Origin: Clostridiaceae bacterium AF10-41
GTDB taxonomy: Bacteria; Bacillota; Clostridia; Clostridiales; Clostridiaceae
Assembly: GCA_027686065.1 (NCBI GenBank)
Contig: JAQCTH010000067.1
Span: forward strand, 1 to 18,950
Direction: 5' to 3'
Length of the DNA stretch: 18,950 nt
In this document: piece by piece, positions 2,028-18,950 of the stretch
How positions within the stretch are numbered: the first letter of the stretch is position 1
Layout of the letters: the number at the start of each line of letters is the position of its first letter
Position numbers and translations under genes: made by a program
The notes under the pieces: generated by a model
Databases searched by the model: none
The model's input: the letters and a program-made list of their open reading frames with translations, nothing else
What the model was told of the DNA's origin: nothing

Positions 2028-2031
2028 ATTT

Positions 2032-3225: not shown

Positions 3226-3304
3226 ATAGCAAACGCTCCTTAAATATGCCTATAATTATATTTTAATTTATTGACTATTCACCTTAAACTTATTTATTAT
3301 TTTT

Positions 3305-3333
3305 ATTATAACATATTTTGTAAATATGTATAA
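3305..3333 (-). promoter_or_regulatory. Possible promoter of the 150-residue protein gene
   Basis: A perfect TATAAT (complement of 3305-3310) is preceded 17 nt upstream by TTATAC (complement of 3328-3333). The -10 is strong and the -35 is poor. It is the best candidate in the gap between the terminator at 3364-3402 and the start codon at 3225. Confidence 0.4.
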
Positions 3334-3363
3334 CTTTTAATAATGTAGATACTTTAAGATATA

Positions 3364-3402
3364 AAAATAGCCTTAGACAAGTCCACTTAATGGTCTAAGG
3401 CT
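3364..3402 (-). terminator. Terminator of the methionyl-tRNA synthetase gene
   Basis: AGCCTTAGAC and GTCTAAGGCT (complement of 3393-3402 and 3369-3378) form a perfect 10-bp stem around a 14-nt loop, followed by ATTTTTAT on the minus strand. It begins about ten bases after the synthetase stop codon. This is a standard intrinsic terminator. Confidence 0.85.
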
Positions 3403-3412
3403 TAAAGATTAC

Positions 3413-5071: not shown

Positions 5072-5108
5072 TTTCTAAATCCTCCTTATTAATAATAAAA
5101 CTTAAATA

Positions 5109-5153
5109 TAAAAAAGCTCCCGTTCTAAGAAATTAATCTTAGGAACGAGAGCT
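5109..5153 (-). terminator. Leader terminator of the metG T-box
   Basis: AGCTC-T-CGTTC and TAAGA pair with TCTTA, GAACG and GAGCT (arms about 5137-5153 and 5115-5130), apart from a wobble pair and one bulged C, and a T-run follows on the minus strand. The 5' arm lies just after the T-box core at 5160-5169, so part of it can instead form the antiterminator when uncharged tRNA is bound. Confidence 0.85.
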
Positions 5154-5399
5154 AAACTTCGTGTTACCATCCTATTTCATGCATACCTTACAATATGCAC
5201 CTCATCAAGTACGTCATATATAATATGATTATACTCTATCACTATAACGGGTGAATCCGTTGCAGCCTTAATTTTTATAACAAAAATCTCGGTACACCGC
5301 TCCAAGGCCATTTTCACTTTAATATCCTTTGCTTCCTCTCACCAATGGAAACTCTCTGTATAAGTATTCTTAAAGTTACTTTCCTCTTCATTGCATTTG
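5109..5399 (-). promoter_or_regulatory. T-box leader, methionine specifier
   Basis: The leader runs from the inferred transcript start near 5398 to the terminator. It contains an AGAGAG-type stem I element (about 5350), a stem I specifier region in which AUG (complement of 5309-5311) is the natural codon within GAAAATGGCC, and the T-box core TGGTAACACG (complement of 5160-5169). The UGGU part would pair with an ACCA tRNA 3' end, as expected for a tRNA with adenine at the discriminator base. T-boxes raise read-through when the matching tRNA is uncharged, so the synthetase should be induced by methionine or charging shortage. The downstream core (AACACG) departs from the textbook ACCGCG. Confidence 0.88.
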
Positions 5400-5404
5400 T
5401 AATT

Positions 5405-5432
5405 ATTATACTCTTCTTAATTACATTGTCAA
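5405..5432 (-). promoter_or_regulatory. Promoter of the metG T-box transcript
   Basis: Consensus TTGACA (complement of 5427-5432) and consensus TATAAT (complement of 5405-5410) are spaced by 16 nt. The recombinase gene ends only 25 bp upstream, so the mobile island stops just short of this promoter and leaves it working. Confidence 0.85.
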
Positions 5433-5460
5433 TATACAAATTTAGTAAAATTCTACGTCA
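5433..5460. other. Probable island/chromosome junction (attachment-site region)
   Basis: Large serine recombinase genes usually lie at one end of their element, next to the attachment site. Here the recombinase stop codon (5458-5460) and the metG -35 box (5427-5432) leave a 25-bp gap, so the crossover is expected in or very near it, possibly overlapping the 3' end of the recombinase gene. The exact core cannot be fixed, because the other end of the element is outside the window. This is inference from gene layout, not a seen repeat. Confidence 0.45.
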
Positions 5461-6996
5461 TTTGTGGTACGATTCACCATAACTACGTTGAACCAAAATA
5501 GTTGATAATTTAAAGACTACATCTACGTAGTCTTCGAAAACTAGCACCTTCTCTACATATAGAAAAATAAACTTCTTTATAAGTTCCTTATCCCTTTGCT
5601 CTAATATCTTTTTATGCTCCTTAAATATCTTTTTTAAATAAGAAGCTGTAATTGGCTCTGTATCTGGATAACTCAATTTAGTCTCTTCCATCTGTATAGC
5701 TAAATTTTCTTTTTCTTCTTCTAATTTAGATAGCCTGTCCATTAAGCTAGCATGTCTATTGCCTTCTGCAACTGCTAGTAAAATATTTTCTATATCTTTT
5801 TCTATTTTAACTAAATTATTCTTAGTAAATTTTAATTCATCTTGCATTTGCTTAGATTTACTATTTGAAAATTTACTTAATTCTTTTACCAAATAATTTA
5901 TTGCTTGTTCTGAAAAAATAACTTTCTCCATCTCTGTTAAAATATATTCTTCTAAGATATCTCTTCTTATGCTTTTAGTATGTTCCTTACCTCCCCCTGC
6001 TTTTGCAGTACAACGATACATTATATATCTTAATTTTTCTCCATTATTATTATAGTAAGATATATTCCCATTCATTTTAGCACCGCACTCACCACATTGG
6101 ACTAGTCCAGAAAGTAAATAAACTTCTTTTGCATTAAAAGTATTATGAATTCTTTTATTTCTTACCATAATTCTTTTAACTTCTTCAAAATCTTTTTTAT
6201 CTATAATAGCTGGCATTCCACCCTCTATTTTAATTATTTGATCTTCATTTTTAGACCTATGAGAGTTTCTCTTTCCATCTACATTTTTAGCCTCTGCTTT
6301 ATTGTAAGTATAGGTTCCAATGTATTTTTCATTTTTTAATATATCCCTAACCGTAGATACAGTAAACTTATTTCCCTTCCCTGTCTTTAATCCTTTTTTG
6401 TTTAATTCACTTACAATATCATTATATCCTCTTCCATTGATATAACTTTCAAAGATAAATCTTATTATTGGAGCAGTTTCTTCATTTATTAAATATAATT
6501 GTGTTTTAGGATCTACTGAATATCCAAGGGGAGGTAACCCTCCATTATGTCTACATGTTCTTGCATTTTCTAGAGAACCTTTCATCACTTCTCTAGCCAA
6601 ATTCTTTGATTCATACTCCGCCATCCCCATAAGCAGGCTTTCCATCACTGTACTTTCTGGACTATCATCAAGTCTTTCCAGTACGCTCAGTAATTTAACA
6701 TTATTCCTTTGTAGTTTATGTTTATATTTTACAGCATCATACTTATTACGGGAAAATCTATTTAACTTGTGAACGATAACTGCATCAAAAATTTTCTTTT
6801 TACTATCCATAATCATTTGCATGAACTGCGGCCTATCATCTTTTGTTCCACTCATTGCTCTATCTATATACGTTTTTACAATTAACATATTGTTTTGTTT
6901 TGCATATTCTTCTATTGCTCTTAATTGAGCATCTATGCTCTCCTCTCTTTGATTATTGCTACTGTATCTTGCATATGCTACAACTCTCATTTTCAT
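5458..6996 (-). CDS. Large serine recombinase (site-specific integrase)
   Basis: The 512-residue product has an N-terminal resolvase catalytic domain (about 3-150) with the nucleophile Ser12 in YARYSS and the conserved LNRFSRN segment at 78-84. A recombinase domain follows (about 150-280, beginning GGLPPLGYSVD), then a zinc-ribbon-like domain (Cys301, Cys304, Cys329; the expected fourth ligand is not a cysteine and may be His339) and a long coiled coil (about 380-440). Such enzymes integrate and excise mobile elements by a double-strand-break mechanism with a phosphoserine link. The start is ATG with AAAGGAG about 8 nt upstream. It follows a 64-residue gene by 18 nt. The full length and intact active site suggest a working enzyme. 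Its end, facing the metG promoter, marks the left boundary of the island. Confidence 0.93.
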   Translation of the reverse strand: MKMRVVAYARYSSNNQREESIDAQLRAIEEYAKQNNMLIVKTYIDRAMSGTKDDRPQFMQMIMDSKKKIFDAVIVHKLNRFSRNKYDAVKYKHKLQRNNVKLLSVLERLDDSPESTVMESLLMGMAEYESKNLAREVMKGSLENARTCRHNGGLPPLGYSVDPKTQLYLINEETAPIIRFIFESYINGRGYNDIVSELNKKGLKTGKGNKFTVSTVRDILKNEKYIGTYTYNKAEAKNVDGKRNSHRSKNEDQIIKIEGGMPAIIDKKDFEEVKRIMVRNKRIHNTFNAKEVYLLSGLVQCGECGAKMNGNISYYNNNGEKLRYIMYRCTAKAGGGKEHTKSIRRDILEEYILTEMEKVIFSEQAINYLVKELSKFSNSKSKQMQDELKFTKNNLVKIEKDIENILLAVAEGNRHASLMDRLSKLEEEKENLAIQMEETKLSYPDTEPITASYLKKIFKEHKKILEQRDKELIKKFIFLYVEKVLVFEDYVDVVFKLSTILVQRSYGESYHK

Positions 6997-7014
6997 AATA
7001 TCTACTCCTTTCTT

Positions 7015-7209
7015 CTATTGCAATTTTCCTTCCTTTTGCAGTATGTTGTAAAACAACTCTAAAATTGGATCAAATAATTGTTCCATGTAATCTTCATCTA
7101 TATCAACTACATCTAATACTTCACTGCTATTAGATACATAACATCCATTCTCTAAATTATTCCTTGTCACCCTTGTCTTAACTCTATTAAAAGTAAATGT
7201 GTTGCACAT
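7015..7209 (-). CDS. Small protein directly upstream of the recombinase
   Basis: This is an unrecognised product of about 64 residues, basic at the N-terminus (NTFTFNRVKTRVTRNN) and acidic in the second half (DVVDIDEDYMEQLFDPILELFYNIL). GGAGG lies 11 nt before the ATG at 7209. An ATG at 7218 is in frame but only 2 nt after GGAGG, and a TTG at 7227 overlaps it. The gene is 18 nt from the recombinase and probably shares its transcript. A recombination directionality factor or another small regulator would fit the position, but there is no motif evidence for that. Confidence 0.6.
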   Translation of the reverse strand: MCNTFTFNRVKTRVTRNNLENGCYVSNSSEVLDVVDIDEDYMEQLFDPILELFYNILQKEGKLQ

Positions 7210-7243
7210 ATCATACATCACCTCCAAAACTTAATTTTTAGAC

Positions 7244-7271
7244 AATATACGTATATAAAATCTAAAATCAA
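7244..7271 (-). promoter_or_regulatory. Possible promoter of the recombinase operon
   Basis: TTGATT (complement of 7266-7271) and TATATT (complement of 7244-7249) are 16 nt apart. The perfect 12-bp dyad ATATACGTATAT overlaps the -10 side and could be a repressor site. The match is moderate. Confidence 0.35.
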
Positions 7272-7301
7272 ATTTTGACATGATATTTTTTTATATTTTT
7301 T

Positions 7302-7330
7302 TAGCCACTAGCTTTGAATGCTAATGGCTA
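7302..7330. other. 11-bp hairpin after the RNase H-like gene
   Basis: TAGCCACTAGC (7302-7312) pairs with GCTAATGGCTA (7320-7330) through one G-U wobble, around a 7-nt loop, 6 nt past the stop codon. On the minus strand the following tract is A-rich, not T-rich, so it is not a classical terminator for the gene above it. It may slow or end transcription, or protect the mRNA 3' end. Confidence 0.45.
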
Positions 7331-7335
7331 TGATT

Positions 7336-7989
7336 TTACTTATATCTTTTACAGGCAATTATATGTTTGCAAGTTTCTTTATTATAATAGAAATATCTAC
7401 ATGAACATGTTTTTCTTGACAGGTTTACTGTAAATTTATTTCCCTTTACAGTTGTTACAATAAACTCCTCTTCCTTAATCTCTTCTATCGTTAACTCTTT
7501 AATATCTTCTTCCCATTTTCGTAACAACATTAGTTTCTCATATACCTTACATGCTTTTCTGTAATTCTCTAATGTTTTATGAGCCTTGTTATCTTTACTA
7601 CTAATATACTTAAATTTTACTGAACCAATTTTACTTACCATATTTTTTGCATTTTCCAATTCCACCTTTAATACTTCTTCTATTTTAGTGTTTTTTCTCT
7701 TATTTCTAAAAAGTCTATTTAATATATAAATAACAGTCGTATTGTCATTATAAATATTGATTTCTTGCTCTTGATTACTACTATTATTAACTAAATATTC
7801 TAGTGCAAATAATACAGAAAGTAACTCTAAGTATATTGTTTCATTTATTCGTTTTTCTAGCACTTCTTTAGATAAATCAATTTCTTCAACATCTTTTTTA
7901 ATAACTGAATTATCTTCTAAAACTAGAAAACCTATTAACCAATATGGCTTTTCTTTTTTAGAGCTTGCATCTGTATTAATCACTAACAT
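7336..7989 (-). CDS. RNase H-like domain fused to a SWIM zinc finger
   Basis: This 217-residue protein starts with a ribonuclease HI-like fold. The likely acidic residues are Asp7 in VINTDASS, Glu55 in the helix YLELLSVLFALEYL, Asp82 in IYNDNTT and Asp133 in SSKDNKAH, consistent with a DEDD-type active site. The C-terminal CSCRYFYYNKETCKH (Cys195, Cys197, Cys207, His209) is a CxC-CxH SWIM zinc finger, a module seen in DNA-binding and transposition-related proteins. I chose the ATG at 7989, where AGGTGA lies just upstream; the longer frame to 8010 adds seven residues. It overlaps the preceding gene's 3' end by 14 bp, implying coupled translation. RNase H acts on RNA-DNA hybrids, but the substrate here is unknown. 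Confidence 0.75.
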   Translation of the reverse strand: MLVINTDASSKKEKPYWLIGFLVLEDNSVIKKDVEEIDLSKEVLEKRINETIYLELLSVLFALEYLVNNSSNQEQEINIYNDNTTVIYILNRLFRNKRKNTKIEEVLKVELENAKNMVSKIGSVKFKYISSKDNKAHKTLENYRKACKVYEKLMLLRKWEEDIKELTIEEIKEEEFIVTTVKGNKFTVNLSRKTCSCRYFYYNKETCKHIIACKRYK

Positions 7990-8287
7990 AAAAATCACCT
8001 GTATCATCATTAATCCTTTTTTCTAATGTAAAAACCTCATCTCTTTCATCTTTAACTGCTATTTTTATACTTATCTCTATTTTTGCTCGTTCAAATTCTA
8101 TTTCGTTATCCTTGTTAAATAAGTTATATAAATCTTGTATTATCCTTAGAATTAAATAATTATCTTTATTAAACTTAGTTAGTGGGTTTCCATCTTTTCT
8201 TAAACATCTGAATATGAGCTGTGCATAATAACTATTTTCTTTTGTTAATTCATCTACATCATGATATTTTACTTCTGTTTCACCCAT
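7976..8287 (-). CDS. Hypothetical protein, 103 residues
   Basis: I do not recognise a family. The product is soluble and charged, with a helical centre (DELTKENSYYAQLIFRCLRKDGNPLTKF) and alternating strand-like stretches near the C-terminus (FERAKIEISIKIAVKDERDEVF). The start is ATG at 8287, because AGGAGGAGG lies immediately upstream; a longer frame to 8332 would run through that site. It is co-transcribed and translationally linked with the RNase H/SWIM gene, whose start lies inside its 3' end, so the two probably act together. Confidence 0.65.
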   Translation of the reverse strand: MGETEVKYHDVDELTKENSYYAQLIFRCLRKDGNPLTKFNKDNYLILRIIQDLYNLFNKDNEIEFERAKIEISIKIAVKDERDEVFTLEKRINDDTGDFYVSD

Positions 8288-8322
8288 CCAGTTTTCACCT
8301 CCTCCTAACTGGATAATAACGT

Positions 8323-8349
8323 AAAAAAGCACCCTTGACAGGATGCTTT
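8323..8349 (-). terminator. Terminator after the zinc-ribbon-like gene
   Basis: AAAGCATCC (complement of 8341-8349) pairs with GGGTGCTTT (complement of 8326-8334) with one wobble, around a 6-nt loop, followed by TTTT on the minus strand. It ends the transcript from the promoter at 8909-8937, although read-through may supply the next genes, which have no obvious promoter of their own. Confidence 0.75.
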
Positions 8350-8369
8350 AATCTTTGTTAGCGCAATGT

Positions 8370-8720
8370 TTACAATTTAAATTTTTTATCTACTCTTTTA
8401 GCAAATTCATCTTTTAGTTTCTGTATATTTTCTGGTGTTCTATCTTTTTCTATAAGTTTGTTTAGAGTTTCTGCAATATCTATACCTAAAGCTGCTGCTT
8501 TAAAATCTAGATATTCTTTATTGCTTGGTTTTAAATAAATACTATATTTATTATTTTTCTCAACCTCATCAACTATGTTATTTTCTTTATTAACTTTTAA
8601 TTTATCCTTACACTTTAAGCACCTATTACTAAAATAGAATCCTTGTCTATCTCTAGTAAATATTTTATCTATAATCATCTTATCATGGATATCCTCAAAT
8701 TTATTATCAATAATCTTCAT
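8370..8720 (-). CDS. C-terminal part of a split zinc-ribbon-like protein
   Basis: From the first ATG this frame gives 116 residues with one CxxC pair (NRCLKCKDKL) and a basic, ribbon-helix-helix-like C-terminal half (YSIYLKPSNKEYLDFKAAALG). No good ribosome site precedes the ATG. The same frame stays open upstream to 8789 and encodes LQVQCVQCKTWITI, a second CxxC pair, but with no ATG, GTG or TTG start there. This strongly suggests that the protein normally begins further upstream and is joined, through a +1 shift, to the short frame at 8776-8874. The rebuilt product would be about 165 residues with a CxxC-(about 40)-CxxC zinc ribbon. Its function is unknown. Confidence 0.6.
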   Translation of the reverse strand: MKIIDNKFEDIHDKMIIDKIFTRDRQGFYFSNRCLKCKDKLKVNKENNIVDEVEKNNKYSIYLKPSNKEYLDFKAAALGIDIAETLNKLIEKDRTPENIQKLKDEFAKRVDKKFKL

Positions 8721-8775
8721 AATAGTAATCCATGTTTTACATTGTACACATTGTACCTGTAACTCCTTAATTTCT

Positions 8776-8874
8776 TTAACATACCTGTACTAATGGTGGT
8801 ACATCTACTCTATCCCCATTGTCTCCTATAACATACATAAAGTCCTTGCTAAATTTTATAAATTCTTTCTCCAT
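8776..8874 (-). pseudogene. N-terminal part of the split zinc-ribbon-like gene
   Basis: A 32-residue frame, MEKEFIKFSKDFMYVIG then DNGDRVDVPPLVQVC, has an excellent start (GAGGAG about 8 nt before ATG) and a near-consensus promoter at 8909-8937. It stops at TAA (8776-8778) inside the overlap with the +1 frame that carries the two CxxC pairs. Skipping the single T of TGT-TAA-A would join the frames into one protein. It could be a disabling one-base mutation, an assembly error, or a programmed +1 shift at a stop codon. I favour decay or an error, since the neighbouring small gene is also damaged. Confidence 0.5.
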
Positions 8875-8908
8875 AATACATCTCTCCTCTACTTTAAAAG
8901 TTTAATGC

Positions 8909-8937
8909 ATTATATGGAGTACACATAATACTTTCAA
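8909..8937 (-). promoter_or_regulatory. Promoter of the split zinc-ribbon-like gene
   Basis: TTGAAA (complement of 8932-8937) and consensus TATAAT (complement of 8909-8914) are exactly 17 nt apart. The start codon at 8874 and its ribosome site follow about 35 nt downstream. This is one of the best promoters in the island. Confidence 0.75.
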
Positions 8938-8960
8938 GTTTTCACCCAATATTTTTTAAC

Positions 8961-9149
8961 TTAAAAAGGAAACCAATCTCCATTTAAAGCCTTTGCTATC
9001 TCTTTAACCTTTTCTTCATAAGTTAAATATTCGTAACTAATTATTTGTTCTATTTCATCATTTGTATGCTTACTATAATCTAAATCAAACGCTATATCTA
9101 ATAGCATTTCTTTATCCTCTTTACTTATATTTAATTCATGTATTTTCAT
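8961..9149 (-). CDS. Small hypothetical protein, 62 residues, possibly interrupted at its 5' end
   Basis: The product is acidic and mostly helical (MKIHELNISKEDKEMLLDIA, then DEIEQIISYEYLTYEEKVKEIAKAL), with no family I recognise. Its ATG has no ribosome site. In the same frame, 12 codons upstream, an ATG at 9185 has a good AGGAG and encodes MEKWSMDL, but the next codon is TAA (9159-9161). Either a nonsense mutation has cut a 74-residue protein, or the 8-residue peptide is a leader and translation restarts at 9149. Confidence 0.5.
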   Translation of the reverse strand: MKIHELNISKEDKEMLLDIAFDLDYSKHTNDEIEQIISYEYLTYEEKVKEIAKALNGDWFPF

Positions 9150-9158
9150 TATTTTATC

Positions 9159-9185
9159 TTATAAATCCATTGACCATTTTTCCAT
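9159..9185 (-). other. Eight-codon leader frame or cut-off 5' end
   Basis: ATG at 9185, with AGGAG about 8 nt upstream, reads eight codons to a TAA and is in frame with the 62-residue gene below. The ribosome site belongs here rather than to the downstream ATG. Confidence 0.4.
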
Positions 9186-9244
9186 ATTAATCACTCCTAA
9201 ATTTTATAATATTTATATCTAACACACATTCATAATGATAATTA

Positions 9245-10156
9245 TTAATTTAAATAAATTTCTGTAATACTTATTCTATAATGACCTAACTCTCTACTTA
9301 CAACTTTTCTAGCTTGCAAGTCTGTTAATCCATGCTGAATCAGTTCTTTATATCTATTTTGGCAATAAAAGTGTCGTAAACCATGAAATGTGATTGATCT
9401 ATTTCTGTCAATAGAAAATTTTTCTTGATTGCTATATATAAACATTTGAATATTTTTAATAACCTTATGTGTTTGCTCACCTTGTCTTATAAAAACCTTA
9501 TCTCCTCTTTTAGTATTATCATATAACTGTTGAATTAGAGTCTTATCTCTAACAGGTACATCTCTTACAAGTCCCCCTTTGCCTTTAATAGATATCTTTC
9601 CATCTTCTAATGCTTGTCTCAAATGCCACTTATCTAATCTACAAACCTCATGGATTCTTAGTCCAATCTCACTGCTTAGTCTTGCCATATCCCCATATCT
9701 CACCTGTCCTACATCACTTGCATATTTTATAAAACTCTCTATCTCAATAGGTGACCATGCTTTATTATCTCCTATTCTTTCTTCTTTACTTCTACTAATT
9801 ACACCTAGTCTATTATTATTTGGAAGTTTACTACTATCACCACCAACTTGATCAATGAAAAATCTTATTGCTGAAAGATTTGTAGTTACATAGGATGTAG
9901 AGTATCCAATATCCTGCATAAATTCTACATATCCATATAAATGCTTAGATTTTATGTTATTTAAATTCTGCTTTTTAAATGCATCTGCCATAAACTTCGC
10001 AAAGTTTTTAACACCATCCTCATATCTCTCCCTAGTTTTAAAAGATCCTTGATTACAATGTTTAAAAACTTTTTCTATCTGTACACATAAGTTTTCATAA
10101 ATATTTTGTGCTTTTTCATCCAACTCCCAATTGTTTTTATCTATATCTTTCTTCAT
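9245..10156 (-). CDS. Tyrosine recombinase / phage-type integrase
   Basis: The 303-residue product has an N-terminal SAM-like core-binding domain (about 18-110, including TRERYEDGVKNFAKFMADAF) and a C-terminal catalytic domain. The expected catalytic set is present: Arg167 in IGLRIHE, a lysine in ISIKGKGG (191 or 193), His258 and Arg261 in HGLRH, His292 in LGHYR and the nucleophile Tyr301. The frame ends right after the tyrosine, as is common. The start is ATG with AAGGAG about 10 nt upstream. These enzymes cut and rejoin DNA through a 3'-phosphotyrosine at paired inverted half-sites. It is the second, unrelated recombinase of the island, and the repeat-rich region upstream (10301-10849) is a candidate for its target DNA. 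Confidence 0.9.
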   Translation of the reverse strand: MKKDIDKNNWELDEKAQNIYENLCVQIEKVFKHCNQGSFKTRERYEDGVKNFAKFMADAFKKQNLNNIKSKHLYGYVEFMQDIGYSTSYVTTNLSAIRFFIDQVGGDSSKLPNNNRLGVISRSKEERIGDNKAWSPIEIESFIKYASDVGQVRYGDMARLSSEIGLRIHEVCRLDKWHLRQALEDGKISIKGKGGLVRDVPVRDKTLIQQLYDNTKRGDKVFIRQGEQTHKVIKNIQMFIYSNQEKFSIDRNRSITFHGLRHFYCQNRYKELIQHGLTDLQARKVVSRELGHYRISITEIYLN

Positions 10157-10187
10157 TCTATACCATCTCCTTTAATAATTTTACGAC

Positions 10188-10215
10188 AGTATACTTACTT
10201 CTTATCCATTATCAA
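10188..10215 (-). promoter_or_regulatory. Probable promoter of the tyrosine recombinase
   Basis: TTGATA (complement of 10210-10215) and TATACT (complement of 10188-10193) are 16 nt apart, about 35-60 nt upstream of the start codon at 10156. Confidence 0.5.
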
Positions 10216-10300
10216 ATTATTAGATAAGATTTTTATAAAAACTTATACAAAATTTCCACTTATTTTTTTGTTTCATCAAATTTTCAAACAAGTTGTTTTG

Positions 10301-10320
10301 CTTATCCCTCACGGGATAAG
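10301..10320. repeat. Perfect 8-bp hairpin
   Basis: CTTATCCC (10301-10308) and GGGATAAG (10313-10320) are exact reverse complements around TCAC. No T-run follows on either strand, so it is not a usual terminator. Confidence 0.7.
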
Positions 10321-10336
10321 GATTTACAGCCCTACT

Positions 10337-10372
10337 GCAAATCGTCTCAGTACATTTACTGAGACGATTTGC
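10337..10372. repeat. Perfect 16-bp hairpin with a 4-nt loop
   Basis: The arms 10337-10352 (beginning GCAAATCGTCTC) and 10357-10372 (ending GAGACGATTTGC) match over all 16 bases around CATT. This is the longest perfect stem in the window. Neither strand shows a T-run beside it. A structured RNA element, a recombination site or a cruciform-forming site are all possible. Confidence 0.8.
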
Positions 10373-10425
10373 TATATAAGTAAAATCTCTGGTTAGTAAT
10401 AAGCCCGTATTCTTGCCTTTGCAAG

Positions 10426-10453
10426 TGTGGCTATATTTATAAATATAGCTACA
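10426..10453. repeat. 28-bp dyad of two 14-bp half-sites
   Basis: The half-site TAAATATAGCTACA (10440-10453) and its inverted copy (10426-10439, one base different) meet with no gap. The central 20 bp (10430-10449) is perfectly self-complementary. The same 14 bases recur at 10630-10643. Repeated half-sites in this form suggest binding by a dimeric protein such as the adjacent tyrosine recombinase. Confidence 0.7.
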
Positions 10454-10600
10454 ACGGATTGCAGTATTCTCACCATAGATGCTGCTTTAAAAGCTAACAC
10501 TGCCAAATAATTGTTAATTCCTATTCATAATCTATATAATCCCTTTTTATAAGAGTTGTTCTGTTTAATTTTTCAAAACAAGTTTAACTAAACAATAATT

Positions 10601-10643
10601 AAATACCTTTGTAAAATAAAAAATACCTTTAAATATAGCTACA
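10601..10643. repeat. Direct repeats: AAATACCTTT twice, then a third half-site
   Basis: AAATACCTTT occurs at 10601-10610 and 10621-10630, exactly 20 bp apart, or about two DNA turns. The 14-bp half-site TAAATATAGCTACA of 10440-10453 recurs at 10630-10643. Regular spacing resembles protein-binding iterons, but in DNA this AT-rich short repeats also arise by chance. Confidence 0.5.
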
Positions 10644-10729
10644 CTATAGTTAAAGATATTTTGTATTCTCAAATATTATTTTTAAAAACTTATAAATTTA
10701 TGAAATATTGTTCTTCAACCCCATAAACT

Positions 10730-10746
10730 TGTGATAACTTATCACA
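10730..10746. repeat. Perfect 17-bp dyad TGTGATAA-C-TTATCACA
   Basis: Eight-base arms match exactly around one central base. It has the shape of an operator for a dimeric regulator, though no promoter is evident beside it. Confidence 0.5.
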
Positions 10747-10820
10747 TATATCTAAATCATCCTTATCTACTACCTCAAAAATTCTATCATAATAATTAAT
10801 TCATTTTATCATTTCAAATT

Positions 10821-10849
10821 ATTACTATATTTTTCATAAATATAGTAAT
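10821..10849. repeat. Perfect 12-bp hairpin sharing the ATAAATATAG core
   Basis: ATTACTATATTT (10821-10832) and AAATATAGTAAT (10838-10849) pair fully around a 5-nt loop. The AAATATAG part is shared with the half-sites at 10440-10453 and 10630-10643, but the flank differs. Confidence 0.6.
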
Positions 10850-11051
10850 TTTTATTTCCACCCTTTTACGTTATTAGTTCTATTCCAACAATTTGATACA
10901 GCAACTTCAATAATAAATAATAATTTACCATGAAGAAGATAGTTAAATGAAACTTAAATTTTAAAATAGAAATTTGATTTTTTTCAAAAGAAGATGTATC
11001 AACTTAATTAAAAATTACCGAAAGTACGTTTTTAATTAATCCTCTTGCAAT

Positions 11052-11072
11052 AAAAAAATCCCCTCTCGGGGA
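11052..11072 (-). terminator. Terminator downstream of the methyltransferase gene
   Basis: TCCCC and GGGGA arms (complement of 11068-11072 and 11059-11063) around a GAGA tetraloop are followed by a run of seven T on the minus strand. It lies about 100 bp after the methyltransferase stop codon and closes the defence locus. Confidence 0.85.
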
Positions 11073-11170
11073 CTATAAGTTTTCTCATTCCACTTTCCCA
11101 CTTTTTAATATTTGATTATAACTTAACTTTAAGTCATGAATCTAATAAAACTATTATTTACTTCAACAAT

Positions 11171-12409
11171 TTATAAAAAATTCTTCATTTTCTTTTTAAT
11201 TGCTTTAGCAATTATTTCTGCCATAAGAGGGGGGACTGCATTACCTATCTGCTTAAATGCAGTTGTTCTTGATGATTCAAAATAAAAATCATCTGGAAAT
11301 GATTGTATTCTTGCCGCTTCTCTTACAGTAATAGATCTATTTTGGTTAATGTCTGGATGAATATAATAATGTCCATCCTTTGCTATATGCGCTACGACTG
11401 TATGACAAACTCCATCATATTGTACTATTTTAAATCTATCAAGAAAAGACTCCTTATTACTATGTGTTGATAAGTACTCTGGCAACTCATTGTATTTAAG
11501 TTTTCTTCCCTCTTCATTCCACAATTTAATACACAATTTATATATCTCTAAATCTATCTTATTATTAGGACGACTTATATTTTGAGTTAAAACATCCCAC
11601 TCTTTTGTTCTAATATGAGTATCCTCCAAACATTTAGTACACTCTAATTTATACGTATTAGATGATTCACCCGAATTAATATATGGTAAATCATTAAATA
11701 AATCTTTTATTGTATATTTATTCTGTACTAACTTAAATTGTGGATATTCAAATTCAATATCTTCTCTCCATCCAATTAATATAATTCTTTTTCTATTTTC
11801 AAGTACTCCAAATTCTTTAGCATTTAATATTCTATAATCAATATTATAGCCTACACTTTTAAATTCTTTTTTTATATCCATAAATATTGATCCATTTTTA
11901 GCAGATAATAAACCCACCACATTTTCAAACACAAATAACTTAGGTGAATATTTTACTAAAAATTTTATATACTCTTTATATAAATAATTTCTCTTATCTT
12001 CAACCATTCCTTTTGGATCTCTTGAACGTCCTATAACTGAATAAGCTTGGCATGGAGGTCCACCAATTATTATATCAATATTTTTTCCTCTTCTATTCTT
12101 ATCAATTTCCTCGAAAATTCTTGGTATAGTTTCCTCACTTATTTCTGAATTAATTACACTTTTAAAAACTCTATTAGGTATATGTGAATAAAACTCGTCC
12201 CTACTTATATTACCTTTAATATAATCTATATATATATTTATTCTATTATTTCTTTTTAAAAAATAGTATGCTTGTCTAGTCTTTAAAGTTAAAGACGCCG
12301 CTTCATCCATTTCAACATGTGCAAAAAATTTAAATCCTGCTCTATGAAACCCCTCTGATAGCCCGCCTGCTCCTGCGAATAAATCAATACAGTTCACTTT
12401 TTCACACAT
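11171..12409 (-). CDS. drmMII: DISARM cytosine-5 DNA methyltransferase DrmMII
   Basis: This 412-residue C5-methyltransferase moves a methyl group from S-adenosylmethionine to cytosine in its target site and marks host DNA as self. Motif I is DLFAGAGGLSEGF (9-21). Motif IV is GGPPCQAYS with catalytic Cys120. Motif VI is ENV (162-164), motif VIII is ENRKR (204-208), the motif IX region is SITVREAARIQSFPDDF (359-375), and motif X is QIGNAVPP (387-394). The target-recognition region (about 240-350) includes a CxxC pair (Cys257/260). The set is complete, so it should be active. It is last in the locus and separated from drmB by 152 bp holding a hairpin and a private promoter with a very short leader (about 15 nt). 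Alone it would be an ordinary Dcm-like enzyme; the drmA and drmB neighbours give the specific name. Confidence 0.88.
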   Translation of the reverse strand: MCEKVNCIDLFAGAGGLSEGFHRAGFKFFAHVEMDEAASLTLKTRQAYYFLKRNNRINIYIDYIKGNISRDEFYSHIPNRVFKSVINSEISEETIPRIFEEIDKNRRGKNIDIIIGGPPCQAYSVIGRSRDPKGMVEDKRNYLYKEYIKFLVKYSPKLFVFENVVGLLSAKNGSIFMDIKKEFKSVGYNIDYRILNAKEFGVLENRKRIILIGWREDIEFEYPQFKLVQNKYTIKDLFNDLPYINSGESSNTYKLECTKCLEDTHIRTKEWDVLTQNISRPNNKIDLEIYKLCIKLWNEEGRKLKYNELPEYLSTHSNKESFLDRFKIVQYDGVCHTVVAHIAKDGHYYIHPDINQNRSITVREAARIQSFPDDFYFESSRTTAFKQIGNAVPPLMAEIIAKAIKKKMKNFL

Positions 12410-12429
12410 CCTCTCTATATCCTAAAAAA

Positions 12430-12458
12430 ATTATACCAGGTCTCTAGTACTATTACAA
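12430..12458 (-). promoter_or_regulatory. Private promoter of drmMII, overlapping a CCTGG site
   Basis: TTGTAA (complement of 12453-12458), 17 nt, then an extended -10 TGG-TATAAT (complement of 12430-12438). The inferred transcript start near 12424 leaves a leader of only about 15 nt containing AGGA and GAGAGG. CCTGG (complement of 12436-12440) covers the extended -10 TGG bases, so methylation there could change promoter strength. Confidence 0.7.
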
Positions 12459-12495
12459 TCTCTATATGTTATTTTTTATTTTTCTCAAAATTAAA

Positions 12496-12538
12496 AGACT
12501 ATATATTAAAATTTATTTAAAATTCACTTATATAGTCT
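12496..12538 (-). terminator. Hairpin, likely weak terminator, after drmB
   Basis: AGACTATATA (complement of 12529-12538) pairs perfectly with TATATAGTCT (complement of 12496-12505) around a 23-nt AT-rich loop, followed by TTTAATTTT. The AT-rich stem suggests partial termination, so some drmE-A-B transcript may continue into drmMII. Confidence 0.55.
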
Positions 12539-12561
12539 AATTTCATGTTATAAAACTTTAA

Positions 12562-14541
12562 TTACTTAAAATTGTTAAAGAACCCTATCTTCTGATTATC
12601 TAACGTTCCAACTATTAATGCTCTATCTAATAAAGTATTAAATTCTTCACAACTAGTTTCTGATATTAAGCAACATGAAAAACATGCAGCTAAATTTAAT
12701 CCATCTCTTCCTTGCCCTAAACTTTCTATGCAAACAGGATCCGATGAACAAAATCTTGCTTTTTCTATTGCTCCATCAATAATCTTAGGTAATCTATCAC
12801 TTTTACCTTGTCTAACTAATCCTCCTAAAGTTCCTTCTGAATCACCATTTGCAGTATATATAAGAATTCCACACATGCTATACTTATCCTCACTGTCATT
12901 ACAATATATACGTTCTCTAAGTGAAGTAGAACTATATCCACATTTAAAACTTAACTCTTTAATTATTATATGAGAAAGAGTATGAAGTAATACGAATTTA
13001 GGCGTTATTTTTCTTATAGAAAATCCTTTATCTACTAACATCTTTGAATATCTTTTATCAATATTATTTACTCTTTCATTTACCTCTGGATTTTCTTTTA
13101 TCCATTTTTCTATCATTTTTTCATTTAACTGAATAAATATACCTTCCCCATTTATATCAATAGCAGGATACCAATCTCTATCTGATAATGGCTTAATTAA
13201 TCTATACTCTTTATTTTCTGTTTTCTCTTCATCAACACTATCAATTATATTATTATCTGGTCCATTTACTCTTGAAAATCCAGTTAACACCCTTACCTCT
13301 CTCATCTTATGTATCAATACAACTTTGCTTAAATAATTTCTATTGTATTCATTAACCTCTTTAGGCTCAACCTTAAAATCTGCTTGATTAAGAATATCGT
13401 AACTTAATTCTCCTATTAAAGCCTTATATTCTTCTTCTTTATATTTCATCTTATCTATAGTATCGCTATTTTCTTCTTCAATATTTTCTAACTTTCTTAG
13501 TATTATTTTTTTTACTATCTTTTCATTAAGTTCTATTTCTCTAGAAATTTTCTTACTAGCATTATCTATAATCTCTTTTATTTTATCTTCTCTATCCTCA
13601 TCTTCTAATTTTATGATTAATCTTTCAAACTCATAGGATTCTTCTACACTCTTAGTAAACTTATCCGAATATGGTGGTATTACTATTGAACTTTCTATTT
13701 TAGGAAAATATATATTAATTGCACCCCTTTGAACTGTTTTAGGATATAACCCACACCCTTTATCTCTTATACCATCCCATGGTCTATTCCCTTTACATAT
13801 AAATGAAAACTCTTCATCACTACTCAATAAATTTTCCTTATTTTTATTTACCTTATCCTCTAATTTCTTAAATTCATTTTTATCACCACTTGTAAATGTT
13901 CCACTTAAACTAACTCTAGCATTACATGTTTTGCATTCAACACTTATTCCTTCAAGCCCAGAACTTACTCCACTTGTTTTTATAATTAGTTTAGGATTAT
14001 CGCAAATCTTTTTGTTATTTTTAAAATGTGTCCACTCTATCCAAGGAAAATCATCTATATGACCATTAGCACATGCTACTACAAGCCTTGCTGGAGCTAG
14101 TTTCACCCTACAGGTCTTATTAGTTTTAGTTATAAGATTAGAACATACAGGTCTTTTCATAATCTGATCTTCACCATTTACTTTTTTATAATCTTTCTCC
14201 CATTCTTTTAAAGTTTTAAATGTTCTACATCTTGGGCAGAAATACCAAGTAGGAAATTGTACAAATGGAATATATAAGTTATCATTATTCTCTTCATCTG
14301 AGTCATTATTATCTTGTTTAACAACAGATGATTTAAAACACTTAACTTTAAGAATCTTTTCTAATCTTTCATCATGTATGGTTGTTAACTTCTTTTTATC
14401 CCAGTATTCTGCACCAGCTGTCATAAGTACCCAATCTGGCATATCAATCATTGCACCTGGTCCAAATGGGAAAACTAATGTAGATGCTCTAATTTTCATT
14501 TTTTTCATTGATATTTGATATTTTCTTTTCAAATCGCTCAT
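12562..14541 (-). CDS. drmB: DISARM protein DrmB (DUF1998 domain)
   Basis: The 659-residue product matches the DrmB pattern: FGPGAMIDMPDW near residues 26-37, zinc-type pairs Cys102/Cys105 and Cys203/Cys206, the characteristic ACANGHIDDFPW (156-167), LLHTLSH near 518-524 followed by KCGYSSTSLRERIY, and a C-terminal cysteine cluster (598, 604, 620, 623, 624, 631) in the DUF1998 region. DrmB binds DrmA, and the DrmAB complex is the core DNA-engaging part of DISARM. I chose the ATG at 14541, 4 nt after the drmA stop; a TTG at 14565 would overlap drmA by 20 nt. The close spacing implies coupled translation and matched amounts of the two partners. All key segments are present. Confidence 0.88.
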   Translation of the reverse strand: MSDLKRKYQISMKKMKIRASTLVFPFGPGAMIDMPDWVLMTAGAEYWDKKKLTTIHDERLEKILKVKCFKSSVVKQDNNDSDEENNDNLYIPFVQFPTWYFCPRCRTFKTLKEWEKDYKKVNGEDQIMKRPVCSNLITKTNKTCRVKLAPARLVVACANGHIDDFPWIEWTHFKNNKKICDNPKLIIKTSGVSSGLEGISVECKTCNARVSLSGTFTSGDKNEFKKLEDKVNKNKENLLSSDEEFSFICKGNRPWDGIRDKGCGLYPKTVQRGAINIYFPKIESSIVIPPYSDKFTKSVEESYEFERLIIKLEDEDREDKIKEIIDNASKKISREIELNEKIVKKIILRKLENIEEENSDTIDKMKYKEEEYKALIGELSYDILNQADFKVEPKEVNEYNRNYLSKVVLIHKMREVRVLTGFSRVNGPDNNIIDSVDEEKTENKEYRLIKPLSDRDWYPAIDINGEGIFIQLNEKMIEKWIKENPEVNERVNNIDKRYSKMLVDKGFSIRKITPKFVLLHTLSHIIIKELSFKCGYSSTSLRERIYCNDSEDKYSMCGILIYTANGDSEGTLGGLVRQGKSDRLPKIIDGAIEKARFCSSDPVCIESLGQGRDGLNLAACFSCCLISETSCEEFNTLLDRALIVGTLDNQKIGFFNNFK

Positions 14542-14545
14542 TACT

Positions 14546-17500
14546 TTACTCTTCCCCTCTCTCAAATATTCTCACTCCAACTTCTCCGTCAACATTTCTC
14601 ATTGATGTCATTGTAGGAATTCCTTTTATCCCCCCACTATTATCATAAAATCTACTTATTAATGGATTATCTCCTTTAACATACTGCAATGGATATTCAT
14701 CATTTTGGCTTTTACTTATCCAATTATCTATGAAATTATCAATCTTTTTAGTTACATATTCTATACTAGTTGGCTCAATCTCTGCAGCTCTGTTAATAAT
14801 ATAAGCTTTTATTTTTTTAATATTCTCTTCTTCTGATTCTATATCAATTGCTGACTTTTCATCATTTAATCTAGTACTGTGCCTAATCATACTTATAAAA
14901 GTTGAGTGAAGCATTCTTTCAATGGAAGCTTCAGAATATGGTGTAATACTTGTTGGTTCTACATATTTATAAAATGCTTGATGATATGCTTGGAATATTT
15001 CATAATGAGAATCATCTCTAGATTTTCTTCCATCATATAAAGTGAATACAATTCCAGGATCACTACGACCAACTCTACTAGATGCTTGTATATATTCTGA
15101 AGTTAGTTTTGGTTGTCCTATTACTGACATTATATTTAACCTAGGCACATCTACACCAACTGAAATCATGTTTGTTGCCAACAAAACATTTATGGCTTCC
15201 TTTTCAGGATACTTTTTTTCTAAATCTTTTAAAGTTTTGACTATATCAGATGAACTTACTCTACTTGTTAATTCTCTAGCACTAGATATATTTCTTGTAT
15301 ATCTAGAATCTTTTACTCTTCTAGCTATTCTAATCATATAATCTTTAACGTCATCATATATAAGTGTTGAAGCTTTCCCAAGCTCTCTTATACTATTAAA
15401 ATATGATACTAATGTCCAATATTTATCTTTTTCTTCATCTGATATATCCATAGTGCCTATTCTTTGTAAAATAGATGCAAATAATCTTATCTCTGTAGTT
15501 GTCTGTGTTTGCCCTATACCTTCAACCCCTACATACATTCTACCAAAACTTTCTTTAAGGCTACTTTCTCTTGTAAAAAATGAATCTTCAATTTCAATAC
15601 CTGGTGCTGGAAACTGCTTAACTTCTCTATTATATAAATTTCTTATTTGTTCATCTGCTTCACATATCGTAGCTGTAGATGCTATTATTTTAGGTCTAAC
15701 TCCTTTTCTACCACATAAATAATCAATTGCTGTTTCAAACAAACTTACTAAAGTTCCTAAAGGTCCTGATATTAAATGTAATTCATCTTGTATTATTAAC
15801 TCTGGTGCCTCACTACATTTTCCGAAAAATGATGAAGCCTCACCTTTCCAAGGTAACATTGCAAATTTATCAACTGTTGAAAAAAGTAATGTTGGTGGAT
15901 TCTTATATAATGATTCGTCTATTATTTGAATGGGTAATGTTTCATGAAAGTGACAATCTTTGTTTTTACATATAAATTCAAACTTTTTCTTTCCTCTTGT
16001 AGAAATATCATAGGAATCTATTGTAAAATCTGTCTTACACCAAGGACATTCTCTAAGTTGAAATTTATTTTCAGCATATTGATTCTTAGAAAGTTCTCTC
16101 TGTTCATATTTAGCATCTTGTAAAGTATTAGGAGTCTGAGTTGAACCAATCCATAATCCAATTGAAATTGGTTCTTCACCAAGTAACTTATCATTTATTT
16201 TTCTTAAGTATTCACATGCACATATTAATTTACTAGCCCTCTCAAATTGCTGAGCTGCTAATAAACGTAATGTATATCTCATTATTATTGTTGTCCCATA
16301 GCCACTCTTGCCTTTACTTATTCTCCTATAAAAAATAGTGAAAGCACTTACCCCTAAATAAGCTTCAGTTTTTCCTCCACCAGTAGGTATCCATATTAAA
16401 TCAACTATATCTCTGAATTTATTTTTACAATCAACTAACGATGATATCGTCATTAATAAAAATGCTAATTGAAATCCTCTCCACTTAGCCTCTTTGATAT
16501 CATACTTTTTATACATATTAATTGAGTTCGCCTCTTCTAAATCTTTTGGATGATTTGATTGTATTCTCTGTATTAACATTGCTGTATTAGCTAATTGAAA
16601 TGATTTAAATGCATCATCATTGCTAGCAAGTAGTTCTACGCCTTCTCTCATTCTATTATAAGAAATATAACAATCTTTAATGTTATTTTCTGCTACATCT
16701 TTATATAATGAATTAAATTTCTCATTATTAATTTGATTTTCTTTATTATCTATCCATAACTTATAACTTAATACGAACTTCAGCAATAGCTCTATAATTT
16801 CATCTTTACCTAACTCACTTAAAGTTGATAACCTTAACATAGAAAGAACTTCATTTTCTATATCAGTTATTTCCTTCATATTAAAATCTGTACCAACAAC
16901 TTCATATATTGGCATATAATCAGTCCTTATTATTCCATTTCCAGTTTTTGTATCTATATCAGAAAAGTCTACTGATACCCCATGTCCAGAACCATAACTT
17001 TGCTTATTTCTGTATAATAATTTTAATAGTTTGTCCTCATTACTTTCATCAATATTTGAACTAACAAATTTGAATTTATTTTCTTCTGAACTAATTGTAA
17101 TTTCTGGTTGAAAAACATAGTATTCATCTGCACCTTTTGATGTGCTTTCATTAACTAGCATAACTGTAATGCTGTACTTATCAAAATACCTTCTTTTTAG
17201 TACAAATACCTTTAACTCCTCTTCCTCTATGTTGAAAACCCCATAATTTCCTTTATTAAAATTAACCACTATAGGATTATCAAATTTAATATTGAATCTT
17301 TTATATGATTTATAACGTCTACTACATTGTTTTAATAACTTATACAGTGCATCTTTAAACTCCTCTCTACCTGTAAAATATCCTTTTTCATTAAACTTAT
17401 CTATAAAGCTCTTATCAAATCTATTTTTCAGCTTCAAATAACCTTCTTCATAATATACGTACATAGATATTTCAGGATCTTCTAATGGCAATAAATCTCC

Positions 17501-17950
17501 ACTATAACTAACCATACATTCACTAGTTTTAACTTCTTTATATCGTGCACCATTTAAATGCATTAATATTTGATCTATATCCCTATCACAAAAGAAAGTC
17601 ATCCCCATAGAACTTTTTCTTGGTATATGAGTATTATTTATACTTTCATGAAATTCTTCATCAATCACTTCCCTATATGAGCTCTTTTTAACTTCTTTTT
17701 CTTCTTTACTATATCCTTCATATTCATCTTCATTATCTTCTTCAGGATTATCTAAATTATTAATTTCATTTTGAGACTCTTCTTTTGTAAATAAAATTCC
17801 AGTAGAATATCTTTTACTTGGTCTATCAGTTATAATTTCTTCTTCAATTGGTAATCCTGTCTTCTCAGAACCTGGTCCAAGAATTTCCTCTCTAACTGCA
17901 AAATAAATTTCTCTTCGTATTTTCTCCAAGTTATTTTTCATACTACCCAT
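14546..17950 (-). CDS. drmA: DISARM helicase DrmA
   Basis: This 1134-residue superfamily 2 helicase has Walker A IPTGGGKTEAYLG (GGGKT at 524-528), the Walker B/DEAH-like QDELHLISGP (DELH 722-725), motif III ASTAT (757-761), the C-terminal LLATNMISVGVDVPRLN (about 923-939) and motif VI QASSRVGRSD (955-964). A cysteine set between the motifs (635, 638, 661, 666) may bind zinc. The N-terminal 500 residues are the family-specific part, with an acidic, low-complexity stretch near 55-100. DrmA moves on DNA within the DrmAB complex. In the published model, the complex senses unmodified invading DNA with a free 5' overhang. The gene starts 3 nt after drmE with GAGGAG just before the ATG, and ends 4 nt before drmB. 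Catalytic motifs are intact. Confidence 0.9.
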   Translation of the reverse strand: MGSMKNNLEKIRREIYFAVREEILGPGSEKTGLPIEEEIITDRPSKRYSTGILFTKEESQNEINNLDNPEEDNEDEYEGYSKEEKEVKKSSYREVIDEEFHESINNTHIPRKSSMGMTFFCDRDIDQILMHLNGARYKEVKTSECMVSYSGDLLPLEDPEISMYVYYEEGYLKLKNRFDKSFIDKFNEKGYFTGREEFKDALYKLLKQCSRRYKSYKRFNIKFDNPIVVNFNKGNYGVFNIEEEELKVFVLKRRYFDKYSITVMLVNESTSKGADEYYVFQPEITISSEENKFKFVSSNIDESNEDKLLKLLYRNKQSYGSGHGVSVDFSDIDTKTGNGIIRTDYMPIYEVVGTDFNMKEITDIENEVLSMLRLSTLSELGKDEIIELLLKFVLSYKLWIDNKENQINNEKFNSLYKDVAENNIKDCYISYNRMREGVELLASNDDAFKSFQLANTAMLIQRIQSNHPKDLEEANSINMYKKYDIKEAKWRGFQLAFLLMTISSLVDCKNKFRDIVDLIWIPTGGGKTEAYLGVSAFTIFYRRISKGKSGYGTTIIMRYTLRLLAAQQFERASKLICACEYLRKINDKLLGEEPISIGLWIGSTQTPNTLQDAKYEQRELSKNQYAENKFQLRECPWCKTDFTIDSYDISTRGKKKFEFICKNKDCHFHETLPIQIIDESLYKNPPTLLFSTVDKFAMLPWKGEASSFFGKCSEAPELIIQDELHLISGPLGTLVSLFETAIDYLCGRKGVRPKIIASTATICEADEQIRNLYNREVKQFPAPGIEIEDSFFTRESSLKESFGRMYVGVEGIGQTQTTTEIRLFASILQRIGTMDISDEEKDKYWTLVSYFNSIRELGKASTLIYDDVKDYMIRIARRVKDSRYTRNISSARELTSRVSSSDIVKTLKDLEKKYPEKEAINVLLATNMISVGVDVPRLNIMSVIGQPKLTSEYIQASSRVGRSDPGIVFTLYDGRKSRDDSHYEIFQAYHQAFYKYVEPTSITPYSEASIERMLHSTFISMIRHSTRLNDEKSAIDIESEEENIKKIKAYIINRAAEIEPTSIEYVTKKIDNFIDNWISKSQNDEYPLQYVKGDNPLISRFYDNSGGIKGIPTMTSMRNVDGEVGVRIFERGEE

Positions 17951-17953
17951 CCA

Positions 17954-18950
17954 CTACTCCTCTAAAATCTTATTTGCCAAATATATTGGAATCTCTTTCT
18001 TTACTTTATAAATACTTTGTACTTCAACTTTTTTTATATAATTTACCGATTCCTCAATTCTATTTTTAATTAATAAATCTAAATTCTCCTCTTCTTCATT
18101 TATTGATAACTTTAATATACACCTTGCTATTGCTTTTCTAATACGTACTTGAAATCTACGTATATTTACACATGCTTCATAACACCCTATATAATTATTT
18201 TTTAAGATACCTATTGATGTTATTTCCCCTAAAGCCTTTAATACCTCTTGATCTTGTGGTCCAACAACTGAATTTAAAAGCCAAGCTCTAATAGTGGCTC
18301 CACAACGTGATACCCCCTTAGATTTAAGTCTATTTTCTAATTCATTATATTTAATATCATTAATTGCAATATAACGCTTCATCTCTAGCTTCCATTGCTT
18401 TACTAACATATAATCTTCATTATATTTAGAGTTAATTTCACTTATCTCTAGTAAATCACTCATTATATTATCAATTAAATCTTTATCTATTTCTTCTATA
18501 AATAAAATAACGTCACCCTTCTCTATGTTTTTTCCCTTTTTATTTATAATTTCTTCTCTACTTTCACTTAAAACATAGGCTTCATATTGAGATGTTATAA
18601 ATGCTCTCTCTCCTGATTGAAAAACTAATACCTTTTCACAAGTTATAGATGATTGCTTCCTTTCATTATTTAAATATGATGGTATATAACTAGTTGCTAT
18701 TAGCATTTCTAACTCATTATTTAAATTATTTTCCTCTTCAATTTCTTCTTTTTCAGATACTACTTTTTTATCCCTATAATCATTTTCTATAGCACTTATA
18801 TATTCAAGCACTTCTGCATCCTCTATTTTATTAATAAACTTGTTATACCTATTCTCTAAATATTTAATGTTATATTTCTCACTCTTATGGAAAATATAAA
18901 TTATCTTATTTGAATTGAAAATATTATAATTCCAATAATAATTATCATCT
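17954..18950 (-). CDS. drmE: DISARM protein DrmE, C-terminal part (gene continues beyond the window)
   Basis: About 331 residues are visible. The first internal start candidate is a GTG at 18811, but the frame has no stop from there to 18950 (it continues through NRYNKFINKIEDAEV directly into the GTG codon), so the true start lies outside the window. The visible part is charged and helical, with an acidic stretch (SEKEEIEEENNLNNELEML) and a later region with RIRKAIARCILKLS. I see no catalytic motif here. The call rests mainly on context: class 2 DISARM carries drmE together with drmA, drmB and a DrmMII-type methylase, and this gene ends 3 nt before drmA. DrmE's precise action is not well defined. 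Another helicase-associated protein cannot be excluded. Confidence 0.65.
   Translation of the reverse strand, partial: DDNYYWNYNIFNSNKIIYIFHKSEKYNIKYLENRYNKFINKIEDAEVLEYISAIENDYRDKKVVSEKEEIEEENNLNNELEMLIATSYIPSYLNNERKQSSITCEKVLVFQSGERAFITSQYEAYVLSESREEIINKKGKNIEKGDVILFIEEIDKDLIDNIMSDLLEISEINSKYNEDYMLVKQWKLEMKRYIAINDIKYNELENRLKSKGVSRCGATIRAWLLNSVVGPQDQEVLKALGEITSIGILKNNYIGCYEACVNIRRFQVRIRKAIARCILKLSINEEEENLDLLIKNRIEESVNYIKKVEVQSIYKVKKEIPIYLANKILEE

Follow-up and report, generated by a model that had tools for sequence, protein, structure and literature searches.

A predicted DISARM-type operon without drmC on a probable serine-recombinase mobile element of a Clostridiaceae bacterium

Results

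A DISARM-type operon in Clostridiaceae bacterium AF10-41

We analyzed 18,950 nt of contig JAQCTH010000067.1 from Clostridiaceae bacterium AF10-41 (hereafter the window, meaning this whole stretch), the right-hand part of which carries a predicted operon of the defence island system associated with restriction-modification (DISARM). Four genes, drmE, drmA, drmB and drmMII, are arranged head to tail on the minus strand (11171-18949), and PADLOC and NCBIfam profiles name all four. This confirms an earlier note that had recognized a DISARM-type locus with no visible drmC from the letters alone, including its coordinates and reading frames. The right-hand edge of the window falls inside drmE, of which the C-terminal 331 codons are visible (17954..18949) and the 5′ part lies outside. 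Internal stop codons are absent from drmMII, drmB and drmA, and the drmE frame is open up to the window edge. Because only 3 bases separate drmE from drmA, the two are adjacent and not fused, so that the tight packing described in the earlier note holds and the fusion it spoke of does not.

The drmA gene (14546..17950, minus strand) encodes a short-form superfamily 2 (SF2) helicase of 1134 amino acids (aa) that scores 960.3 bits against NF038325 (DISARM_DrmAS, cut-off 950), is recognized by PADLOC PDLC02575 (E 9e-235), matches the solved Serratia chain PDB 7s9v_A (E 8e-170) and keeps the motifs PTGGGKTEA, DELH, STAT, SVGVD and QASSRVGR. The DUF1998/MZB protein encoded by drmB (12562..14565, minus strand; 667 aa from a TTG) reaches 502.3 bits against NF038324 (DrmB_fam, cut-off 240) and matches PDB 7s9v_B, the DrmB chain (E 9e-76); an ATG at 14541 corresponds better to the start in Clostridium ragsdalei and is more likely the real start codon. 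The product of drmMII (11171..12409, minus strand) is a predicted C5-cytosine DNA methyltransferase of 412 aa (PADLOC DrmMII PDLC02649, E 8e-171; PF00145) with the motifs FAGAGG, GGPPCQ, ENV and GNAVPP, and two further patterns that we tried were unmatched as written. The Pfam domains over cut-off in the operon proteins are DrmE_C, MZB, Helicase_C and DNA_methylase. The catalytic motifs of both DrmA and the methyltransferase are intact. The proposed helicase with intact motifs, DUF1998 protein with DrmB signatures and complete C5-methyltransferase are all borne out, and the profiles assign the DrmA- and DrmB-like proteins to DISARM families and not to another family.

Between drmB and drmMII lies a gap of 152 bases on the same strand (12410..12561), in which a hairpin and a promoter had been noted in place of drmC; we find the same length, hairpin and a promoter-like site. 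The A+T-rich hairpin (12496-12538) has a fold z of -2.65, with 2 of 200 shuffles folding equally well, and the promoter-like site is of the extended -10 type (TTGTAA-17-TATAAT, 12458-12430). Promoter-like matches across the region are fewer than expected by chance (17 versus 24.2 in shuffles), and the site is credible only because its -35 and extended -10 elements are conserved in locus L050, the closest relative with identical gene order. It suggests that drmMII is probably expressible on its own, as would be expected if the methyltransferase must protect the host first. A terminator-like hairpin with a T run lies 3′ of drmMII (11057..11074, minus strand; 1 found versus 0.6 expected).

DrmE as a predicted pseudo-helicase

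The visible part of DrmE scores 226.5 bits against NF038316 (DrmE_fam, cut-off 80) and matches PF24957 and PADLOC PDLC02636 (E 9e-11). Against the DISARM_DrmE equivalog NF038323 this C-terminal fragment reaches 48.6 bits, below the cut-off of 250, and the full-length C. ragsdalei DrmE at 52.3 bits stays under it as well. The visible part is 96.7% identical to an 851-aa protein (P0018), and close relatives measure ~850 aa; the two protein searches scored only the candidates with the most words in common. DrmE is predicted to have an SF2 helicase fold with two RecA-like domains, and no DrmC-type nuclease stood among the top rows of the fold comparison. Walker A was absent from all 25 DrmE rows, one of which had a lone DEYH, and the phospholipase D (PLD) motif was found in none of the 25. 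DrmE is therefore predicted to be a pseudo-helicase, that is, a helicase fold without ATPase motifs.

Classical DISARM_DrmE (NF038323) was above its cut-off in none of 398 genomes of the same phylum. A tblastn search of plasmids with the C. ragsdalei protein yielded no DrmE relatives, and our own DrmE profile weakly matched a 278-aa protein adjoining drmA on a Priestia plasmid (E 5e-12). The drmE of L050 (4615-6093; genome G014) is naturally disrupted by an ISLre2-type transposase gene. In five DrmE loci (L051, L064, L065, L066 and L067), the gene that directly follows drmE is conserved and encodes an ATPase/SF1-helicase-like protein of ~580 aa.

drmC is absent from the sampled DrmE-carrying loci

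The visible 7.8 kb of the locus contain no drmC. Apart from a tyrosine recombinase gene, drmMII and drmB, all open reading frames (ORFs) between 10150 and 12600 have at most 96 codons, and our own DrmC profile matched none of the window ORFs of at least 80 aa. We sought DrmA in two sets of genomes, 206 from the same family, with 22 matches of which 13 were over cut-off, and the 398 from the phylum, with 60 mostly weak matches of which 9 were over cut-off. DrmE_fam was found in 9 of the former and 6 of the latter, one genome being in both sets, which gives 14 genomes. The stretches taken from around strong DrmA or DrmE_fam matches amounted to 41, including the window and two plasmids; three of them (L067, L076 and L077) belong to a single genome and have overlapping content. 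With our own profiles, DrmC was found in 10 stretches, DrmE in 16 and both in none; in the window and in L067, whose contig pieces are split, the view does not extend to both flanks of the operon. Locus L047 is borderline for DrmE_fam, with 80.4 bits by genome search (just over the cut-off) and 66.6 by protein scan (under it), and has no DrmC. Its genome, G059, harbors two different drmC-free DISARM-type loci, L046 with DrmE alone and L047 with the borderline DrmE-like protein plus a helicase-like ATPase.

The same separation appears at the level of genomes. With the NCBIfam DrmC model, 6 of 22 genomes scored 96.6-115.2 bits, each time with the match beside drmB, and the best scores in the other 16, which include all 14 DrmE_fam genomes, were at most 47.4 bits; the model serves as a relative yardstick only, because no match reaches its curated cut-off of 133. 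A pattern scan of the genome collection returned C. ragsdalei P11 (L001) as the sole relative, in which the order is methyltransferase, drmE, drmA, drmB (6011-15363) and drmC is missing throughout 23 kb. Upstream of its drmE, 7.4 kb contain genes for a TnsE_C protein, a GHKL ATPase and the methyltransferase and two more that have no Pfam match, and again no drmC. We also looked for a conserved gene replacing drmC in DrmE loci and found none in the window: only the ~580-aa helicase-like ATPase (5 loci), Vsr (3) and an EcoO109I-type endonuclease (3) recur in at least three DrmE stretches, and the window has none of them. A Lactiplantibacillus plantarum plasmid (L070, 6570-8975) carries a methyltransferase gene, a gene whose 801-aa product matches neither Pfam nor NCBIfam, drmA and drmB, also with no drmC.

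DrmA phylogeny and the history of drmC

Three DrmA trees were built: one of 39 rows with a midpoint root, one of 40 rows rooted on the plasmid loci L091 and L092 (long DrmA, annotated drmC, taken as class 1-like), and a careful one of 32 rows rooted on two drmC-bearing plasmid rows, for which 13 of 45 rows were omitted as near-copies (L039, L040, L042) or as long, cut or doubtful (L054, L070, L075, L081-L086, L093). In the careful tree, the drmC-positive rows branch first, and the remaining 24 rows, including the window, form a drmC-free clade with a support of 94/94, which also contains plasmid loci of Priestia, Photobacterium, Tsukamurella and Deinococcus. The drmC label changes once, and with the two-plasmid root this reads as a single loss of drmC. 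Because the locus belongs to this drmC-free branch, the missing drmC is normal for its kind, and the locus looks more like an established natural variant than a damaged copy. A search of viral contigs with back-translated patterns gave no DrmA relatives.

Several points weigh against this view. The window ends inside drmE and the DNA to the right of 18950 lies outside our data, so that a drmC there is formally possible. The support of the 24-row clade is good and not maximal, its branch being drawn open, and the rows omitted from the careful tree include the drmC-negative L054, L084, L085 and L086. In the 39-row tree these four, together with L083, fall outside both the drmC-positive group and the window's group, which indicates that the absence of drmC is not confined to the window's branch. 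With the midpoint root of that tree, a single gain of drmC would fit equally well. Two label changes are needed in the 39- and 40-row trees, because L075, whose contig stops 166 bases past drmB, is scored as drmC-negative. Bacilli with a classical operon of drmE and drmC lie outside the sample, and the rule may not cover all DrmE. Two outgroup rows determine the polarity of loss and gain, whereas the separation between DrmE and DrmC rows is independent of them. The tree is the measure to rely on, since a Fisher test takes no account of kinship.

Nucleases in the neighborhood

A gene for a type II restriction endonuclease or Vsr lies within the cluster at 8 of 15 DrmE_fam loci. These are of the EcoO109I type (L048, L049, L052), have an NgoFVII-type C-terminal domain (L044, L046) or a FokI cleavage domain (L045), or are Vsr genes (L046, L063, L064). 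In L045, L046, L048, L052 and L063 the endonuclease gene is spaced 8-41 bases from the methyltransferase gene or overlaps it by 4 bases, and in L046 and L051 a DUF2357/PD-(D/E)XK gene with an AAA_5 partner follows too. No such endonuclease gene is visible in the window, and none is confirmed in its nearest kin L001 and L050, where GHKL proteins show a similarity to BbrUII far below the cut-off. The control from drmC-positive stretches comprises 12 neighbor ORFs, with no type II endonuclease and one ORF with an OLD-like TOPRIM domain; an 893-aa protein of L038 has a sub-threshold likeness to type III restriction enzymes. The endonuclease neighborhood of drmC-free operons is a hypothesis, not a rule, since neighbors were scanned in part on both sides, the control is small and the proximity of DISARM to restriction-modification systems is already in print.

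Proteins with PLD domains were found in 21 of the 22 genomes, the exception being the drmE-bearing G325. In G415 and G215 such proteins (~790-800 aa) are encoded a few kilobases from the drmC-free operon. Many of the genomic matches are two-domain proteins of ~480-540 aa, which we take, judging by length and repeat, to be cardiolipin-synthase-like.

The operon is part of an insertion

Positions 37-5476 of the window match genome G027 at 97% (3300-5459 at 100% among the matches listed). Beyond 5476 the window enters a gene for a large serine recombinase (5458..6996, minus strand; PF00239, PF07508, PF13408), which forms the left end of the insertion, and G027 continues with other genes, beginning with that of a 187-aa protein (P-loop by eye) and followed by genes of ordinary chromosomal look. 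Because G027 departs from the window at this point and gave neither a DrmA match in the 206-genome search nor a DrmE_fam match, the operon belongs to an insertion, at least 13.4 kb long, that this near-identical chromosome lacks. The left junction (5460..5481) lies in a short imperfect palindrome, likely an attachment site, that G027 and G025 share and at which the DNA of both diverges from the window. The insertion starts just upstream of metG (3413-5071), which is preceded by a T-box leader (5138-5400, minus strand; RF00230, 104.8 bits).

A gene for a XerC/D-like tyrosine recombinase (9245..10156, minus strand; PF00589, 41.5 bits) lies between the serine recombinase and the DISARM genes. Two inverted repeats, a perfect one of 16 bases with a 4-base loop (10337-10372) and one of 14 bases (10426-10453), are located between this gene and the operon. 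Positions 7336-8010 (minus strand) encode a 224-aa protein with an RNase H-like region, below cut-off, and a SWIM zinc finger. In C. ragsdalei, a gene with a TnsE C-terminal domain (L001, 7-1041) is situated 6.4 kb upstream of drmE, and since the DISARM locus lies behind it, this locus may be cargo of a Tn7-like transposon. The Pfam scan of ten window proteins named no Tns domain.

Discussion

We interpret the locus as a complete-looking predicted DISARM-type operon, consisting of drmE-drmA-drmB and of drmMII with a promoter of its own, that belongs to a drmC-free branch and resides on a serine-recombinase mobile element, and we assign this reading a probability of about three in four. In the mechanism that we consider most likely, DrmMII would mark host DNA by cytosine methylation, and DrmAB, restrained by methylated DNA, would load onto unmethylated phage DNA with single-stranded ends and translocate. 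DrmE, a putative pseudo-helicase with a helix-turn-helix-like tail, might aid in recognizing or holding phage DNA. Circularization or replication of the phage would then be blocked without a dedicated DISARM nuclease, and any cutting might be left to host or neighboring nucleases. A bolder version, which we consider rather doubtful, is that a whole DISARM branch shed its nuclease deep in its history, carries in place of DrmC a DrmE that is a catalytically dead, RIG-I/FANCM-like helicase, has a HINT-like, helix-turn-helix tail and serves to sense DNA or as an adaptor, and either blocks phage DNA without cutting or delegates this step to adjacent, interchangeable type II restriction or Vsr endonucleases.

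Cutting could alternatively be supplied in trans by a PLD-family or other host nuclease encoded elsewhere, a proposal already made for DISARM in the available part of PMC9142583. The near-ubiquity of PLD proteins (21/22 genomes) and their position near the operon in G415 and G215 speak for it, but many of them resemble cardiolipin synthases in length and repeat, the 16 drmC-free genomes all stay at or below 47.4 bits to DrmC, and drmE-bearing G325 has no PLD match, which makes this a possible though improbable explanation. Somewhat less probable still is that a type II restriction or Vsr endonuclease beside the operon performs the nuclease step, borrowed from a restriction-modification partner. 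The 8/15 loci with such a gene, five of them with the tight spacing to the methyltransferase, fit this idea, yet none is visible in the window or confirmed in L001 and L050, and the control is thin, with an OLD-like TOPRIM domain among its 12 ORFs and the sub-threshold type III-like protein of L038. Moreover, DISARM frequently adjoins restriction-modification systems (PMC10270631, available part), so that proximity need not mean a shared mechanism. The same paper states that both DISARM subtypes share drmABC.

That drmC is simply out of sight, upstream of drmE, as the earlier note had considered, or elsewhere in the genome, would make the locus an ordinary class 2 DISARM; the window ending inside drmE and its own genome lying outside our data leave room for this. 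We regard it as very unlikely, given that drmC adjoins the operon in none of the 16 stretches that carry DrmE, that the 7.4 kb upstream of drmE in C. ragsdalei are free of it and that none of the 14 DrmE_fam genomes contains a DrmC-grade match. Least of all do we expect a decaying remnant that lost drmC and no longer works: the drmE of the sister locus L050 is interrupted by a transposase gene, but in the window the visible frames are open, the motifs intact and the promoter-like site conserved, and the absence of drmC spans a deep clade.

How DISARM destroys phage DNA when its only nuclease is removable is an open question. A natural drmC-free branch makes it testable, since protection by the operon alone would mean that the DrmC nuclease is not part of the mechanism, and the predicted pseudo-helicase nature of DrmE is a structural hint at the role of this protein. 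A five-gene finder would not call the drmC-free branch type II DISARM; DrmE_fam was found in 14 genomes here.

Comparison with known systems

The locus resembles class 2 DISARM (PADLOC type II: drmE, drmA, drmB, drmC, drmMII) in its DrmA, DrmB and DrmMII and in the DrmE-family protein in front of drmA. It differs in that drmC is missing, DrmE scores 48.6 instead of the 250 bits of the equivalog cut-off and drmMII has its own promoter-like site. The PADLOC definition requires DrmC (PMC9252829, available part), and the profiles find four of its five genes in the visible part, with DrmE at family level and no DrmC. The class 2 label of the earlier note is thus right in kind, given drmE in front, the drmMII methyltransferase and the curated profiles, and fails by the strict definition, lacking DrmC and with DrmE below equivalog. 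A PADLOC scan of nine window proteins named neither DrmD nor DrmMI, the markers of class 1. With the Serratia DrmAB complex (PDB 7s9v, 7s9w) the locus shares a homologous helicase and DUF1998 partner, but the window DrmA is shorter (1134 versus 1325 aa) and no DrmD or DrmMI is among the visible genes. The drmC-positive DISARM-like operons of the same phylum (L038-L043, L072) share drmA, drmB and, except for the cut L042, a C5 methyltransferase; they differ in having drmC and no DrmE by our own profile, and L038, scanned gene by gene, additionally encodes an SNF2 helicase, an N6/N4 methylase and the type III-like protein.

PMC12458937 mentions many uncharacterized DISARM-like classes, which likewise consist of YprA-family helicase operons with varied partners; the name DrmE is absent from its main text, and its available part describes no drmC-free branch. 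A literature search by titles and abstract starts, largely outside subscription papers, gave no account of a drmC-free DrmE branch. Earlier publications had already described drmC as dispensable and frequently lacking and DISARM as a common neighbor of restriction systems, and the earlier note, in ranking drmC as the least essential gene, is in line with the term dispensable in the available part of PMC9142583. The drmC-free DrmE branch is new in detail, not in kind.

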